64,000 bases of DNA from Bradyrhizobium sp. LHD-71 (GTDB lineage Bacteria > Pseudomonadota > Alphaproteobacteria > Rhizobiales > Xanthobacteraceae): contig NZ_JAVIFX010000022.1 of the NCBI RefSeq assembly GCF_031157255.1, forward strand, positions 2,501 to 66,500, written 5' to 3'. The notes beneath the pieces are model-generated. The model was not told where the DNA came from. It searched no databases and was given only the letters and a program-made list of their open reading frames with translations. Below, piece after piece: positions 8,950 to 59,437 of this stretch. The translations under genes were made by a program, and so were the position numbers. The first letter of the stretch is position 1. Each line of letters opens with the position of its first letter.

Positions 8950-8969
8950 GATCCAATTTGTCCCCGGCC

Positions 8970-9024
8970 TGTTTAGCAAGTTGTTTAACGTGGCTGCAAG
9001 CCGGCCGGCTCAAATGACCACGAC
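8970..9024 (-). ncRNA. SAM-II riboswitch aptamer
   Basis: The minus-strand leader of metX carries the SAM-II (metA motif) signature: a CGTGG/CCACG P1 stem, the stretch TCATTTGAGCCGG, then GCTTGCAGCCACG, followed by TTAAACAAC and GCTAAA, which form the pseudoknot with the P1 loop. SAM-II aptamers are a known alphaproteobacterial class controlling metA/metX. The aptamer sits immediately before a terminator/antiterminator pair and just after a promoter. Confidence 0.93.
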
Positions 9025-9033
9025 GAGATCAAG

Positions 9034-17472: not shown

Positions 17473-18303
17473 ATGAATATCGTTTGCCCGAATTGTGGAA
17501 CTTCCTATGACGTGGAGGCGTCCACGCTCGGTGCGGCCGGACGGACGGTGCGCTGCGTCCGCTGCCGCGAGACCTGGCACGCGCGGGTTCAGGATCTGGG
17601 ACGGGCCAATGCTCTCGTTCACGTCGACGGGGACCGAGCCGGCGCCCATGAGGCTGCTGTGGCTTCGGACCTGCCGCCCCCCTCGGTCGATCATCTCCTT
17701 CCTCAAATCGAAAGCCCGCCGCTCGTTCATGATGGCGCGCCGGCCCCGGACTGGACCGGCCGGCACCGCGGCGACGCCAACTCGGCGCCATCACGTCCGG
17801 GACAGACCCGCGCTGGTCGCCTACGGCAGTTTGCTTTCGGCTCGGGCCGGGCAAGAGGCTTGAGCTTCAGCCCGGCGACAACGATCGCCGCCATGGCCGC
17901 TCTCGTGCTCGCGCTTATCATCTGGCGGAACGACGTGGTACGCCTGCTGCCGCAGACGGCGGCGTTCTTTCAGGCCACCGGGCTTGGCGTAAACTTGCGC
18001 AACCTGACGTTCGAGGACGTCAAGATCTCCACCGAAACGGTGAGCGGCCAACGCGTCTACGTCATCGAAGGCGCGATTGCCGCGACTTCGCGCAAAGCGG
18101 TCGAGATTCCCCGCCTTCGATTCGTCGTGCAGGACGCGAACGGCGCGGACATCTACGCCTGGAACTCGGTGGTCGACCAGGCCGCAATCAGGCCCGGCGA
18201 GAAGATCGCCTTCAAGTCGCGTCTTGCTTCGCCGCCCACGGAGGCGCATTCAATCATCGTCCGCTTCTTCCATAAGCGCGATCTGGCCACAGGAAGCGTG
18301 TAA
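17473..18303 (+). CDS. MJ0042-type zinc-ribbon, membrane-anchored protein
   Basis: The N-terminus MNIVCPNCGTSYDVEASTL...VRCVRCRETWHA is an MJ0042 zinc ribbon with two CxxC pairs. A disordered Pro-rich linker follows, then one membrane helix (TTIAAMAALVLALIIW) and a C-terminal beta-rich extracytoplasmic domain resembling DUF3426 (VYVIEGAIAATSRKAVEIPRLRFVVQD). Function is unknown. ATG 17473 is preferred over TTG 17467. The stop TAA overlaps the cpdR ATG (TAATG), so the two genes are coupled. Confidence 0.82.
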   Translation: MNIVCPNCGTSYDVEASTLGAAGRTVRCVRCRETWHARVQDLGRANALVHVDGDRAGAHEAAVASDLPPPSVDHLLPQIESPPLVHDGAPAPDWTGRHRGDANSAPSRPGQTRAGRLRQFAFGSGRARGLSFSPATTIAAMAALVLALIIWRNDVVRLLPQTAAFFQATGLGVNLRNLTFEDVKISTETVSGQRVYVIEGAIAATSRKAVEIPRLRFVVQDANGADIYAWNSVVDQAAIRPGEKIAFKSRLASPPTEAHSIIVRFFHKRDLATGSV

Positions 18304-18674
18304 TGGCCCGAGTGCTCATCGCCGACGACGAAGAATCCATGCGCCAGCTTGTGGCGCGCGCGATTGCCATGGACGGCCACGAGACGACGACGGCCGAAGA
18401 CGGCGCCGAAGCGCTCGAAGTGCTCATCAAGGAAGATGGCGGCTTCGACCTGCTGCTCACCGATATCAAGATGCCGGTGATGGATGGCATTGCGCTGGCG
18501 CTTGCCGCCAAGCGCGACTTTCCGAAACTCACCATTCTGCTGATGACCGGCTTTGCCGACCAGCGCGAGCGCGCCTCAGGCCTCGACGTCATCGTCCACG
18601 ATGTCGTCACCAAGCCCTTTGCGGTCGCCGATATTCGCACGGCGGTCGCCGACGCGTTGGCATCGCGCGGCTAG
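18303..18674 (+). CDS. cpdR: response regulator CpdR
   Basis: Single-domain receiver protein that, unphosphorylated, directs ClpXP substrate degradation and polar ClpXP placement in the alphaproteobacterial cell cycle. The acidic pair is ADDEE, the phospho-acceptor Asp lies in LLLTDIKMP, the switch Thr in LLMTGFAD and the Lys in VTKPF. There is no output domain (123 aa). The TAG stop is formed by the CTAGTG border of the repeat element that follows. Confidence 0.92.
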   Translation: MARVLIADDEESMRQLVARAIAMDGHETTTAEDGAEALEVLIKEDGGFDLLLTDIKMPVMDGIALALAAKRDFPKLTILLMTGFADQRERASGLDVIVHDVVTKPFAVADIRTAVADALASRG

Positions 18675-18838
18675 TGTCGTAGATCAGAAATTCGCACCAT
18701 CGCTGCCGCGAGTCCATCGTGCGAATTTCTGATCTATAAACGACACTAGAATCATAAACTTGCTAGTGTCCTGATCGAATCCGAAGTTCGCTCTGAACTC
18801 GCTGCAAAGTATAGCGAACTTCGGATTCGGGACACTAG
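18671..18838. repeat. paired-hairpin element, copy A (CTAGTG-bordered)
   Basis: 168 bp made of two hairpins. Hairpin 1: border CTAGTGTCG (18671-18679) / CGACACTAG (18741-18749) and an 18-bp perfect stem (18680-18697 / 18719-18736) with core GAAATTC. Linker AATCATAAACTT (18750-18761). Hairpin 2: border CTAGTGTCC (18763-18771) / GGACACTAG (18830-18838) and a 17-bp perfect stem (18776-18792 / 18813-18829) with core CGAAGTTCG. Loops are 20-21 nt. The left border contains the cpdR stop TAG and the right border, read on the minus strand, the TAG stop of the DUF4175 gene. Confidence 0.9.
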
Positions 18839-21441
18839 AAGTCCTTCAGAAGCCGTTCGAGGTAATCGAGCTCGAGCTGTGGCCGCTCCGGATCGGAGAA
18901 GCGTCGGCGCAACTCTTCGAGGATGCGGCGGACCCGCTGCACGTCGATCTCGCCCGGGATCTTCACCGAGAAATCGTCGCTGAACTCACGCCCGCGCAGC
19001 GGGCGCCCGAGCGGATCGGCGTTGGGACCGCTGTTCTGCTGCCTGCCCACCTGGTTGGACGGGCCGTTATCATTCGGATTGCCATCGCCCTGGCCCTGCT
19101 GCAGTTGCTGAGCGAGGTTCTGTGCGCCACGCCGCAGCGCTTCCAGCGCCCGACCCTGCGATCCGACGGCGCCATCAGCATTGCCGTCGCCGAGCTGATT
19201 GCCGGCGTCGCCCATCGCGTTATCGGCATCGCCGAGCGAATCGCCATCCTCACCTTGACCCTGACCCTGACCCTGACCCTGCTGGCCCTGCTGACCTTGC
19301 TGTCCAGGCTGACCCTTTTCACCCTTCTGGCCCTGGCCGCGCTCGCGCATGCCTTGTTTGCCCAACTGATCCAGCAGCGACTGCAAACGGTCGCGCAAGG
19401 CCTGCTGATCCTGCTGCAGGTCGCCCATGCCGTTCTGGTTGTCGTTCTGCTCGCCACCGCGCTGGCCGCGTTGCCGGCGCGAATCCTGGCCTTCCTTGAA
19501 GGTGCGGTCGCGCAACTGCTGCTGCTTGCGGATCACGTCGCCGAGCTCGTTCAGCGCCTGCTCCATATCGTCGCCGCCCTGACCCGGCTGCGCCATCTGC
19601 AGGTTCTCGAGCATCTGCTGCATCTGGTCGAGCAGCTGCTTCGCAGCGTCCTTGTCGCCCGAGCGGGACATCCGCTCCATGCGATCGATCATGTTGCGCA
19701 AATCGTCCTGGCGCATCACGCGCGTGTTCGGATCGAGCGGGCGCGCCAGCTGCTGCGGATTGTTGCGCAACTGCTCGGCAAGCTGGCGCATGAAATTGTC
19801 GAGCGCCGCGCGCAACTGATCGGTGAGTTTCTTGATCTCCTCGTCGGATGCGCCGCGCTCCAGCGCCTGACGCAACGCTTCCTGCGCGGCCCGCAACGCG
19901 CGCTCCACGTCGCTGATGTTGCCATCCTCGATCGTGACGGCGAGGGCCCAGAGATTGCCGACGACCTCCTTGAGATCGTCATCGGCCTTCGCGTGCGTCA
20001 GTTGCTCGTAGATCGTGCGCATCCCGAGATAGTGGCCGAGCTCGGGCGTGAACTGCTCGGGTTCGATCATGAGCGCATCGAGCGCATCCTTCACCTCGTC
20101 CCGCTTGTTGGCGTCAAGCGCAAGGTTGCGGCGCTGTTCGATCAGCGAACGCGCCAACGGCTTGACGAACAGCCGCTCCGGCATCCTCATGTCGAATGGC
20201 GCGCTCGTCCCCTCGTTGCCGGCCTCGTCCTTCGCCCGCAACGTCAACCTCAGGTCGGCGCCGGCGTAGGGGTGCTCAGTCAGGTCCTTCACGGTCTGGC
20301 CGACGCCGTTGCGCGTGCGCGCATTCGGCAGCACCAGCGGAAAGTCGGGTGGCGCGAAGAGCGGCCGCGCTGCCTGGGCGGCGCTATCGCTGTTGCGTGC
20401 AGCGAAGGTCGCATGCGCTTCCGTGACGCCGTAGTCGTCCTCGAGCTTATAGGACATCAGCAGCGAACCCCGCGCCTGCCGCTCCGGATCCTTCGCCAGC
20501 GATATAGATGGTCCCCGATCGGGCACGGCGGCAAACCGCCATGACGGCAGGCCAGACGGCGCGCGTACCTGCGCAACACCGTCGGCCGCGATGGTGTAGC
20601 GGCGTTCTTCGGTGCCGGCCGGTGGCGGCTTGTCGTCTGCAGCGGCCTCGGTGATTCCACCGCTGGTGAGGACATCGAGCCTTCCGCCGCTGGCACGGAC
20701 AACCAGCGTGCTGCCGGCAGGCACCTGCAGCGTGTTGGTGTTTGGCGTAGTCTGGGCGTTCTGAGCGTTGACGGCGCCGGACAGAATGATCGGCGGCCTG
20801 TTGGTATAAGCCGGCGGCGCGACCCAGGCGTCGAGCCGCACGTTCGCGGGCGCGAGCACGCCCTGCCAGTCGAACGCAGCGGCGATGCGTGCGCGCCGGT
20901 CGCCGCCGGCGGCGATTGCCGTCGCAACCAGCAGCACCACCACCAGCGCCCGCAGCGCCCAGGGATCGTGGATCGCCAATCGTGGCGACGGCAGACCTGC
21001 CTTGATGTTCCGGATCGACGCGAGGGTGCGCTCGCGCTGCACGCGCCAGAGCGTCTGGGCGACCGGGTCCTGCGACGCCAGCGTATCGGTCAATGTGGTT
21101 GCAGGCCGATGGCGGATGCCGGTTCCGCGATCGAGCCGGGTGAGCGCCTCGATGCGGCTGGGCCAGCGGAACCAAATCAGCGGGGCGAGAGCTGCGAGCG
21201 CCAGAAGGACGAACAGCGCCAGTCCGATCGCGCGGCCGCTCGACGGCAGCCACAGCCACAGTCCGACCCAGGAGGCCACAAGGAAAAGCCCGATGACCGT
21301 CAACAGCCGGGCGAGCGTCGGCCAGAGGCGCTCCCAGGCGATCGCGTATTTAGCGCGGCGAAGTGCCTGCTCGAGCTGAAGCCGGGCGAGCGGATCGGCG
21401 GTCGCGTGGGTCTTGTGCGGTCCGGGACTGCTTCTGTCCAA
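18835..21441 (-). CDS. TIGR02302/DUF4175 family large membrane protein
   Basis: Conserved alphaproteobacterial protein of unknown function, 868 aa. Two N-terminal membrane helices (LLTVIGLFLVASWVGLWLWL, AIGLALFVLLALAALAPLIWF) and a third near residue 170 (ALRALVVVLLVATAIAAG) precede a periplasmic beta-rich part, a helical part (KRDEVKDALDALMIEPEQF), and a strongly Gln/Gly-rich low-complexity segment with QGQ and GQ repeats around residues 680-760. The C-terminus EIDVQRVRRILEELRRRFSDPERPQLELDYLERLLKDF is the conserved family end. Its stop codon comes from the border of repeat copy A. A cell-envelope role is guessed only from topology. Confidence 0.88.
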   Translation of the reverse strand: MDRSSPGPHKTHATADPLARLQLEQALRRAKYAIAWERLWPTLARLLTVIGLFLVASWVGLWLWLPSSGRAIGLALFVLLALAALAPLIWFRWPSRIEALTRLDRGTGIRHRPATTLTDTLASQDPVAQTLWRVQRERTLASIRNIKAGLPSPRLAIHDPWALRALVVVLLVATAIAAGGDRRARIAAAFDWQGVLAPANVRLDAWVAPPAYTNRPPIILSGAVNAQNAQTTPNTNTLQVPAGSTLVVRASGGRLDVLTSGGITEAAADDKPPPAGTEERRYTIAADGVAQVRAPSGLPSWRFAAVPDRGPSISLAKDPERQARGSLLMSYKLEDDYGVTEAHATFAARNSDSAAQAARPLFAPPDFPLVLPNARTRNGVGQTVKDLTEHPYAGADLRLTLRAKDEAGNEGTSAPFDMRMPERLFVKPLARSLIEQRRNLALDANKRDEVKDALDALMIEPEQFTPELGHYLGMRTIYEQLTHAKADDDLKEVVGNLWALAVTIEDGNISDVERALRAAQEALRQALERGASDEEIKKLTDQLRAALDNFMRQLAEQLRNNPQQLARPLDPNTRVMRQDDLRNMIDRMERMSRSGDKDAAKQLLDQMQQMLENLQMAQPGQGGDDMEQALNELGDVIRKQQQLRDRTFKEGQDSRRQRGQRGGEQNDNQNGMGDLQQDQQALRDRLQSLLDQLGKQGMRERGQGQKGEKGQPGQQGQQGQQGQGQGQGQGEDGDSLGDADNAMGDAGNQLGDGNADGAVGSQGRALEALRRGAQNLAQQLQQGQGDGNPNDNGPSNQVGRQQNSGPNADPLGRPLRGREFSDDFSVKIPGEIDVQRVRRILEELRRRFSDPERPQLELDYLERLLKDF

Positions 21442-30615: not shown

Positions 30616-30984
30616 AGCGCAGCCGCACCGATCAAGGAATGGGCACCGTCGACGATGCCTTGCTGATCCGTTCGGGCGAAATCCGGTGGACTTTCACCGC
30701 AGCCATGGCCGCGGTGAAGATTAGCTATCGTTACCAACAACATAAGCGAGCTTCGTCGGATACCGTGACCTCGGGGCACAGTCACGCCTAAGGTCACCGA
30801 TCCGGTTGATGCAGCCGACACGAATCGATAAATTCCGGCTGCCGCGTTACTGGCGACACAAGATGGAGCACCATCGGGAAGCGCGGCCTGACGCACGGTC
30901 TTGAAGCCGATCGTGTTGATGAATGGCCGTTCGCCTGGGCCGCCGAGGTCACTCGGCATTTCCGTTTCGGGAGGCCCGGTCGCA
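30616..30984. other. intergenic stretch without a gene
   Basis: No supportable coding region. It contains a 7-bp dyad GTGACCT (30765-30771) / AGGTCAC (30791-30797) and a GGGAGG ribosome binding site (30969-30974) for the ABC transporter. No terminator with a T tract was found. Confidence 0.5.
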
Positions 30985-44354: not shown

Positions 44355-44521
44355 CTAGTGCTCCTTTTCCGAAGTTCGCATCACTTCGCCGCACACTCTA
44401 AATGCGAACTTCGGAAACCTCCGGAGCGCTAGCAACTTTATGATTCTAGTGCGGTTTTGAATTTGAAATTCCTGCGATGAGATTGCCGCGGTTGGCAGGA
44501 ATTTCAAATTCACCGCACTAG
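44355..44521. repeat. paired-hairpin element, copy B (inverted orientation)
   Basis: 167 bp. First hairpin: 44354-44364 pairs with 44423-44433 (one mismatch) and a perfect 15-bp stem 44367-44381 / 44402-44416 with core CGAAGTTCG. Linker AACTTTATGATT (44434-44445), the reverse complement of the copy A linker with one change. Second hairpin: border CTAGTGCGG / CCGCACTAG and a perfect 17-bp stem 44459-44475 / 44495-44511 with core GAAATTC. The final CACTAG supplies, on the minus strand, the TAG stop of the HIG1-like gene. Confidence 0.9.
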
Positions 44522-44715
44522 CCACGTGACATCGCCCACAAGGCCGCCATCGCGATGACGATGGCCACGAACTGCAACAGCACGCGCAAGCGCATCAGCC
44601 GCTGCGAGGTGTCCGGCGAGCCGCCACGCATCATGTTGAGCAGCCCGAGCAGCAGCACCACCGCGACCGCAGCGATCGCGACCGGCACCAGAAAGTTACT
44701 TAGAAAACCAGCCAT
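44518..44715 (-). CDS. HIG1-like twin-transmembrane protein
   Basis: 65 aa with two membrane segments (FLVPVAIAAVAVVLLLGLLNMM and LQFVAIVIAMAALWAM) joined by a polar hairpin RGGSPDTSQRLMRLRV containing the Q-x-x-M-R-x-R-V pattern of bacterial HIG1-domain proteins, relatives of respiratory supercomplex factors. It lies between two inverted copies (B and C) of the paired-hairpin element, and its stop codon is the border of copy B. Confidence 0.85.
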   Translation of the reverse strand: MAGFLSNFLVPVAIAAVAVVLLLGLLNMMRGGSPDTSQRLMRLRVLLQFVAIVIAMAALWAMSRG

Positions 44716-44858: not shown

Positions 44859-45028
44859 GCTAGTGCCGCCGATTTGAAATTCCTGCACCACCTGCGGCAG
44901 GCTCGTACTAGGAATTTCAAATCGAAAAGCGGCACTAGCATCATATCTTTGCTAGTGCCCTCTTAGTTTTCGAAGTTCGTGTCGGAGGGTGCCGCGATGT
45001 ATCACGAACTTCGAAAACCGGGCACTAG
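44859..45028. repeat. paired-hairpin element, copy C
   Basis: 170 bp, same orientation as copy A. Hairpin 1: 11-bp border 44859-44869 / 44929-44939 and perfect 15-bp stem 44870-44884 / 44910-44924 with core GAAATTC. Linker ATCATATCTTT (44940-44950). Hairpin 2: border CTAGTGCCC (44952-44960) / GGGCACTAG (45020-45028) and perfect 15-bp stem 44967-44981 / 45003-45017 with core CGAAGTTCG. It lies between the divergent HIG1-like and YihY genes and ends ten bases before the YihY start. Confidence 0.9.
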
Positions 45029-59352: not shown

Positions 59353-59437
59353 GCCCCTGTGGCGGAACTGGTAGACGCGCTCGACTCAAAATCGAGTTCC
59401 GCAAGGAGTGCTGGTTCGATTCCGGCCAGGGGCACCA
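59353..59437 (+). tRNA. tRNA-Leu (anticodon CAA)
   Basis: 85 bases including encoded CCA. Acceptor stem GCCCCTG / CAGGGGC, D arm GGCGGAACTGGTAGACGC, anticodon stem CTCGA / TCGAG with loop CTCAAAA (anticodon CAA), long class II variable arm and T arm CTGGTTCGATTCCGG. It sits between dsbB (divergent) and the convergent efflux gene, whose stop codon begins at the very next base. Confidence 0.95.

Follow-up and report, generated by a model that had tools for sequence, protein, structure and literature searches.

The 168-bp repeat lying between the convergent cpdR and DUF4175 genes of Bradyrhizobium sp. LHD-71 (copy A) is probably a non-autonomous two-hairpin MITE with CTAG as its target, perhaps moved by an IS630-type transposase. 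The CTAG target, the native origin of the stop codons at its borders, the conservation of its structure and the distribution of its copies are shown by the data below. Its placement from stop to stop is caused by target choice, which applies generally and not to copy A alone.

Copy A and its neighbourhood

Coordinates refer to the window, the 64,000-nt stretch of contig NZ_JAVIFX010000022.1 (positions 2,501-66,500) that was analysed as a whole. It holds three copies of the element, with the following features.

18671-18838, plus strand: copy A of the element, 168 bp
18671-18749, plus strand: hairpin 1 of copy A, from CTAG foot to CTAG foot, with a bulge of about 4 nt on the 3' arm
18750-18762, plus strand: linker of copy A, 13 nt, AATCATAAACTTG, IHF-site-like at 8 of 9 specified consensus positions
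18763-18838, plus strand: hairpin 2 of copy A, from CTAG foot to CTAG foot, with a bulge of about 4 nt on the 5' arm
18671-18674, plus strand: left CTAG of copy A, whose TAG (18672-18674) is the cpdR stop
18835-18838, minus strand: right CTAG of copy A, whose minus-strand TAG (18837-18835) is the stop of the DUF4175 gene
18303-18674, plus strand: cpdR, response regulator receiver domain by profile match
18835-21441, minus strand: DUF4175/TIGR02302 gene by Pfam and NCBIfam profile matches
44355-44521, minus strand: copy B of the element, 167 bp
44518-44715, minus strand: HIG_1-domain gene by profile match, ending at the CTAG of copy B
44860-45028, plus strand: copy C of the element, 169 bp, intergenic, with neither border a gene stop

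The coordinates bear out the original observation that the cpdR TAG lies in the left border of copy A and the DUF4175 TAG in the right one, with the element spanning exactly from one stop to the other; the HIG1-like gene likewise has its stop within the border of copy B (CTAG at 44518-44521), as had been proposed. The supposed rarity of CTAG holds for the window, with 33 occurrences against 65.9 expected from dinucleotide shuffles. The best NCBIfam equivalog for the cpdR product is CpdR, at 89 bits, which is under that model's cut-off of 180. The DUF4175 protein matches the Pfam profile to its last position and the NCBIfam profile to the last but one, and its C-terminus therefore looks intact by profile coverage. 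The window also carries a SAM_alpha riboswitch (8952-9031), a ZMP/ZTP riboswitch (30836-30947) and a tRNA (59353-59434).

Structure and conservation

Two covarying hairpins with CTAG feet, and a 13-nt linker between them, make up the element, which is about 168 bp long in all and has no transposase gene. Folded as single-stranded DNA, copy A reached -57.6 kcal/mol against a shuffle mean of -18.7 (z -12.9). Among 25 diverse copies, aligned out of 37 picked, RNAalifold recovered 50 pairs, 32 of them with compensatory changes and few of them broken. One bulge, in the 3' arm of hairpin 1, and another, in the 5' arm of hairpin 2, lie on either side of the linker; bulges and linker alike are conserved across lineages. 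When doublets were detected without the linker sequence (gaps of 0-40 nt permitted), the linker measured 13 nt in 51 of 51, most of their loci having originally been retrieved by the linker itself.

The linker is a putative IHF site: in 39 of the 51 doublets it agrees with the IHF consensus, WATCARNNNNTTR, at 8 of the 9 positions specified there, and 1,623 of 200,000 linker shuffles fitted equally well on either strand. GANTC occurs in the hairpin-1 loop of 39 of 57 LHD-71 copies and 9 of 48 others, with about 4 expected per set, and at the junction of CTAG and linker in 42 of 57 LHD-71 copies and in 48 of 48 others, the latter count being partly built in by the retrieval pattern.

Placement relative to gene stops

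Flanks were rejoined round a single CTAG, and genes were then called by a codon-usage script trained on LHD-71. Among 58 two-sided LHD-71 copies, 22 lay at a gene stop (two of these serving both convergent genes), 34 were intergenic and two were inside genes. The check that had been proposed, a comparison with random intergenic placement, gave a strong enrichment: only 417 of 68,212 random non-coding insertion points (0.6%) fell at a stop, against 22 of the 56 copies outside genes (binomial p=3e-34). The enrichment did not stand against a fairer null, namely the free CTAGs of the same LHD-71 DNA, of which 71 were intergenic, 61 in genes, 32 at one stop and 4 at both stops; outside genes the share at stops was 36/107 for these and 22/56 for the copies (p=0.49). 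What did differ was the share inside genes, where copies were rarer (2/58 vs 61/168, p=1e-7). When six palindromic words were compared, stop overlap was found only in the two that contain a stop, CTAG (36/168) and TTAA (12/187). Because free CTAGs lie at stops equally often and in-gene copies are rare, target choice together with the loss of harmful in-gene copies suffices for the LHD-71 pattern.

In other genomes, 41 classified copies comprised 17 at one stop, one at both, 21 intergenic and two in genes, whereas the free CTAGs comprised 18 at stops, 85 intergenic and 46 in genes. The resulting excess at stops (18/39 copies vs 18/103 free CTAGs, odds ratio 4, p=0.001) rests on weaker gene calls, with the gene model trained on LHD-71, and the intergenic background of free CTAGs there may be inflated by worn remnants of the element. 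With LHD-71 and the other genomes pooled, 40 of 95 copies and 54 of 210 free CTAGs were at stops (p=0.005).

The border words support the suggestion that the CTAG border marks the choice of target. Of 113 copies, 88 had CTAG at both borders, 21 at one and 4 at neither, with a border finder that favoured CTAG by a small bonus; an identical word other than CTAG on both sides was found in none of the 113. Neighbouring genes were convergent, tandem and divergent around 15, 27 and 11 copies and around 23, 58 and 24 free CTAGs, and the gene at the border adjoined the hairpin-1 side in 13 cases and the hairpin-2 side in 11, showing no preference.

Occupied and element-free sites

The proposal that the element provides the stop codons of its neighbours was not supported: CTAG was already present in element-free orthologues at three of four sites, and gene length was unchanged in 8 of 9 comparable cases. 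The four sites are from Nitrobacter and were compared across four genomes; where CTAG occurs in an element-free genome, it is a stop codon at two of the three sites, and two of the sites are cleanly empty, with just one CTAG. L218, which lacks the element of the L052 site, shows a single CTAG with a left flank matching at 94% over 427 nt and a right flank at 89%, while 30 nt (L052) and 73 nt (L218) left of the CTAG do not align. At the L065 site, a gene stop, L211 is occupied and L212 is empty with a single CTAG; these two agree at 84% over 475 nt on the left and are also conserved on the right, and the left flank of L065 itself matches neither. The elements at this stop have opposite orientations in L065 and L211, the site being vacant in L212. 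At the L064 site, again a gene stop, L222 ends the gene in the same CTAG without the element, followed by about 142 nt of other DNA in its place and then the same right flank (83%). This insert just after the gene bears an inverted AACATGATCC/GATCATG motif, and the stretch is perhaps a second repeat with the same CTAG target. At the L047 site, the element-free L217 has GCAG, not CTAG.

Orthologues from a sister species were compared over 1.2 Mb of its approximately 5.1 Mb, where 13 of 34 border genes were matched, four weakly or over a short length and nine well. Eight of the nine comparable genes end within two residues of the sister orthologue's end, including those at copy A (differences of 2 and 0 residues) and copy B (-1 residue); the ninth, the L026 border gene, is 18 residues shorter, a possible truncation by the element. 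The proposed comparison of the C-termini of CpdR and the DUF4175 protein with relatives lacking the element found them at their usual place. The idea that insertion at gene ends is harmless accords with this, in that reading frames stay intact when the target CTAG is a stop.

At copy A itself, we infer that cpdR and the DUF4175 gene formerly overlapped in a 4-bp CTAG that served as the target; this is deduced rather than seen because the sister species has a TGA stop in both orthologues. The DUF4175 gene adjoins cpdR at 20 of 30 loci examined (its own included), and in the 19 relatives the spacing runs from a 14-nt overlap to 1336 nt apart, being 13 nt or less in seven. No two-hairpin element was seen beside cpdR in these 19 relatives, in stretches inspected up to 260 nt. 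In one genome (L180 in G034), the cpdR orthologue's stop is where a single hairpin of the hairpin-2 type starts, with TTAA in place of CTAG as its left foot; in another (L163 in G017), the cpdR orthologue ends in CTAG and is followed by a different inverted repeat that reaches near the DUF4175 stop.

Abundance and host range

The element is mobile and present at about a hundred copies in LHD-71. A 23-nt linker pattern, with up to three mismatches allowed, matched 98 places in its genome (7.48 Mb, 82 contigs), with none for the reversed control, and a looser pattern gave 129 places against 4 control matches. BLAST with copy A, with 40 of 166 candidates scored, found at least 41 further near-full-length places at 93-98% identity. 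The LHD-71 set covers 97 of the 98 linker places (one on contig 38 was left out, as were several weaker places of the looser pattern); 106 detections were reduced to the 58 non-redundant two-sided copies with good borders classified above, the others had one side only, at the end of a contig, duplicated a site already counted or had weak borders. A copy is found within 100 bp of at least 28 contig ends, which indicates that the assembly breaks at the element, and both copy number and nearby ISs may therefore be under-counted.

Beyond LHD-71, which has the highest copy count among 61 genomes, the element was matched in 14 of the 61 (LHD-71 included), all of them among the 37 of the same family. 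With a stricter pattern applied to a class-wide sample, 5 of 385 genomes matched (LHD-71 included), three of the other four with a single match. Hosts among the matches listed are Nitrobacter, Hyphomicrobium, Mesorhizobium, Rhizobium, Phyllobacterium, Asticcacaulis, Stappia and a Parvularculaceae MAG. The copies from other genomes (69 detections in 66 stretches, 41 of which were classified) were retrieved by the linker among the matches listed, so that linker conservation there is partly built in. Copy A had no match in plasmid and phage collections, Rfam placed no family on the element at the gathering threshold or at E up to 1, and no earlier description of it was recognised in the literature searched.

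Candidate mobilising enzymes

An IS630-type mobiliser is a fair inference from shared ends and target and not a result, because no genome was found with a matched pair of IS and element. DDE_3 genes occurred in five of six element-bearing genomes, the exception being LHD-71, where neither a DDE_3 (IS630-type) match nor a match to the L229 transposase was found in an assembly fragmented at the element; of 21 further element-bearing genomes, 11 had DDE_3 and 10 gave no DDE_3 match. At 10 of 15 DDE_3 loci, scanned for CTAG-bounded pairs only, an IS630-type IS bounded by CTAG with inverted ends was present in 5 of the 10. One of these ISs, L229, encodes an IS630 transposase by profile (261 bits vs a cut-off of 100).

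IS ends were compared with element arms in 32 combinations; for L241, L242 and L243 the ends had been placed manually at CTAGs, doubtfully so for L243. L226 and L229 had ends that agreed with outer arms of the RACATTYG type at 16-17 of 22 bases, a score reached by 0-1 of 2000 shuffles. The arm type of the window, GAARTTC, matched four related ISs weakly, at 14 of 22 at most (9-346 of 2000 shuffles as good), and ISs with CTAGAGCG ends did not match the element arms. Relatives of the L229 transposase were found under 6 of 29 genome handles, two of which are apparently the same genome with an identical match, and none in LHD-71. The copies retrieved from genomes with the L229-type transposase were not of the RACATTYG type, and the RACATTYG-element genomes searched had no L229-type transposase; in no genome were the matching IS and the matching element type found together. 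The IS630-type loci of the 21 further element-bearing genomes yielded paired ends in 5 of 30 cases, with a best arm match of 12/22.

Other candidates were set aside. The 25 largest protein clusters near elements of different genomes, judged by eye, resembled common metabolic, transport and regulator families, with no transposase seen. A RAYT/Y1 enzyme was rejected as mobiliser, the sole Y1 gene found in LHD-71 having its own GTAG-type repeats and no CTAG hairpin; this gene (L097, contig 19) is of the Y1/RAYT type, has one internal TGA and lies amid GTAGCCCGCATGAGCG repeats. In G034, an IS200-like copy with different ends (L188, approximately 1187-2010) stands beside an element copy whose last foot is incomplete; the association of Y1 gene and linker at this locus was dismissed, as the IS200-like copy is a neighbour with different ends.

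Discussion

The proposed mechanism is simple. The element inserts at a pre-existing CTAG and leaves CTAG, hence at least TA, on each side. CTAG is its own reverse complement and holds TAG on either strand; genes ending there keep their own stop and length, whether the target is the stop of one gene or a 4-bp stretch in which two convergent stops overlap. With CTAG scarce in genes and common at stops, and in-gene copies mostly absent, many surviving copies would come to lie exactly at stops. There is about an even chance that an IS630 (Tc1/mariner-type) transposase moves the element by TA duplication inside CTAG; the mobiliser of the LHD-71 copies, IS630-type or other, would carry CTAGTGTC ends. 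IHF would bend the linker and bring the two hairpins together, and the hairpins would matter as folded DNA or RNA. Against the MITE reading stand the strong compensatory change, unexpected of an ordinary double-stranded MITE, the richness of LHD-71 in copies yet without DDE_3, the GCAG at the L047 site and the shorter L026 gene.

Two further accounts concern the stops. That the element makes them, by landing in the 3' part of a gene, truncating it and lending its border TAG as the new stop, would suit the L026 border gene with its 18 missing residues and the L155 gene, which would end 24 nt past the start of the restored CTAG; it is very improbable given that 8 of 9 comparable border genes end within two residues of their orthologues, that neither the CpdR orthologues nor the C-terminus of the DUF4175 protein show an unusual end point and that two Nitrobacter sites have the CTAG stop in the element's absence. 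It is refuted as a general rule, and single cases may occur. Selection for sitting at stops, for instance as a terminator or a stabiliser of mRNA ends, is quite unlikely: LHD-71 shows no excess over free CTAGs (22/56 vs 36/107), gene orientations resemble those around free CTAGs (15/27/11 vs 23/58/24 convergent/tandem/divergent) and neither hairpin side is preferred (13 vs 11), although the share at stops is higher than for free CTAGs in other genomes (18/39 vs 18/103, p=0.001; pooled p=0.005) and, in work cited by PMC5082802, a REP within 15 nt of a stop is reported to stall ribosomes.

The fold invites two others. Processing of single-stranded hairpins by a Y1 (HUH) transposase, as in REP/RAYT or IS200/IS605-like systems with CTAG as the cleavage tetranucleotide, would agree with the long hairpins, conserved bulges and compensatory change, with a tetranucleotide at every foot and with the lack of any IS630-type gene found in LHD-71, and GTAG-tagged REPs are a known parallel in the account given by PMC3733652; yet the only Y1 gene found in LHD-71 serves GTAG-type repeats without the CTAG hairpin, Y1 genes were not clearly commoner in genomes with the element (6/14 vs 10/47, p=0.16), and no linker was found at 20 Y1 loci other than L188, all of which makes this mechanism unlikely. 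The compensatory changes might also stem from correction of quasi-palindromes by template switching in replication rather than from selection on the fold, which we regard as possible but doubtful. Such correction would leave few broken pairs, as is found here; it does not by itself explain why bulges and linker are conserved across lineages.

The preferred reading, a CTAG-targeting MITE, offers a simple explanation for the exact placement of small repeats at stop codons, in that the word they target reads as a stop in either direction and no sensing of position is needed. For genes such as cpdR, effects on termination and on the decay of the mRNA would also be predicted, as the hairpin starts inside the stop codon. 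A bolder generalisation, for now tentative and open to considerable doubt, is that alphaproteobacterial two-arm repeats (this element, perhaps CIRs) constitute a distinct transposon design that combines paired hairpins, an IHF-bent linker holding them together, IS630 (Tc1/mariner-type) transposases and CTAG as a palindromic stop-word target, whose scarcity in genes and restoration on both strands would keep insertions harmless.

Comparison with known repeats

The element shares paired palindromes, high copy number and closeness to gene ends with REP/REPIN/RAYT repeats and BIMEs, from which it differs in having neither a GTAG tag nor a linked RAYT. RIBs have an IHF site between palindromes, and a 1993 paper, going by its title, reportedly dealt with IHF and RIBs at the 3' ends of transcription units. 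PMC5082802 describes further repeats that lie where convergent genes end in Bradyrhizobium.

IS630-family ISs share the flanking CTAGs, present at both ends in 5 of the 10 loci examined, and the ends of L226 and L229 match one element type; the element differs in having no transposase gene, and the matching IS and element type were not found in one genome. Insertion of IS630 at the TA in CTAG was reportedly the subject of a 1991 paper cited in PMC2170065, judging by its title. As described in PMC2170065, IS630-type elements duplicate TA, and PMC3189936 describes a 100-nt MITE that duplicates CTAG or YTAA. The present element has the shortness, the lack of a transposase gene and the CTAG flanks with single-CTAG empty sites of an IS630-derived MITE; in none of the genomes searched, LHD-71 included, was it found together with a matching transposase. 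RUP of Streptococcus pneumoniae is also a small repeat, with IS630-Spn1-like ends, a TA target and 108 copies in the account of PMC2229807; its length is 107 bp, whereas our element has two separate hairpins, a linker and a CTAG target. Correia/NEMIS repeats of Neisseria have a terminal TA, inverted ends and an IHF site in their 155-bp form; in the same account, repeats other than CIRs fold end to end into a single stem loop, whereas either end of the present element pairs with an inner arm of its own.

By description, the closest architecture is that of the CcrM-associated intergenic repeats (CIRs) of Caulobacter (Chen and Shapiro 2003, via the review PMC2229807). According to this 2007 review, CIRs have two arms and a linker, TA termini and GANTC sites, and their mechanism of mobility needed further work. 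Both repeats occur in Alphaproteobacteria outside genes and consist of two long inverted repeats as linker-joined arms with terminal TA and GANTC; the CIR is about 110 bp as described there, against about 168 bp, and has GANTC at the loop of one arm, whereas in our element GANTC lies mostly at the CTAG-linker junction and partly in the loop. With its empty sites, its fixed target and a transposase family as candidate mobiliser, the mobility of this CIR look-alike can now be tested.
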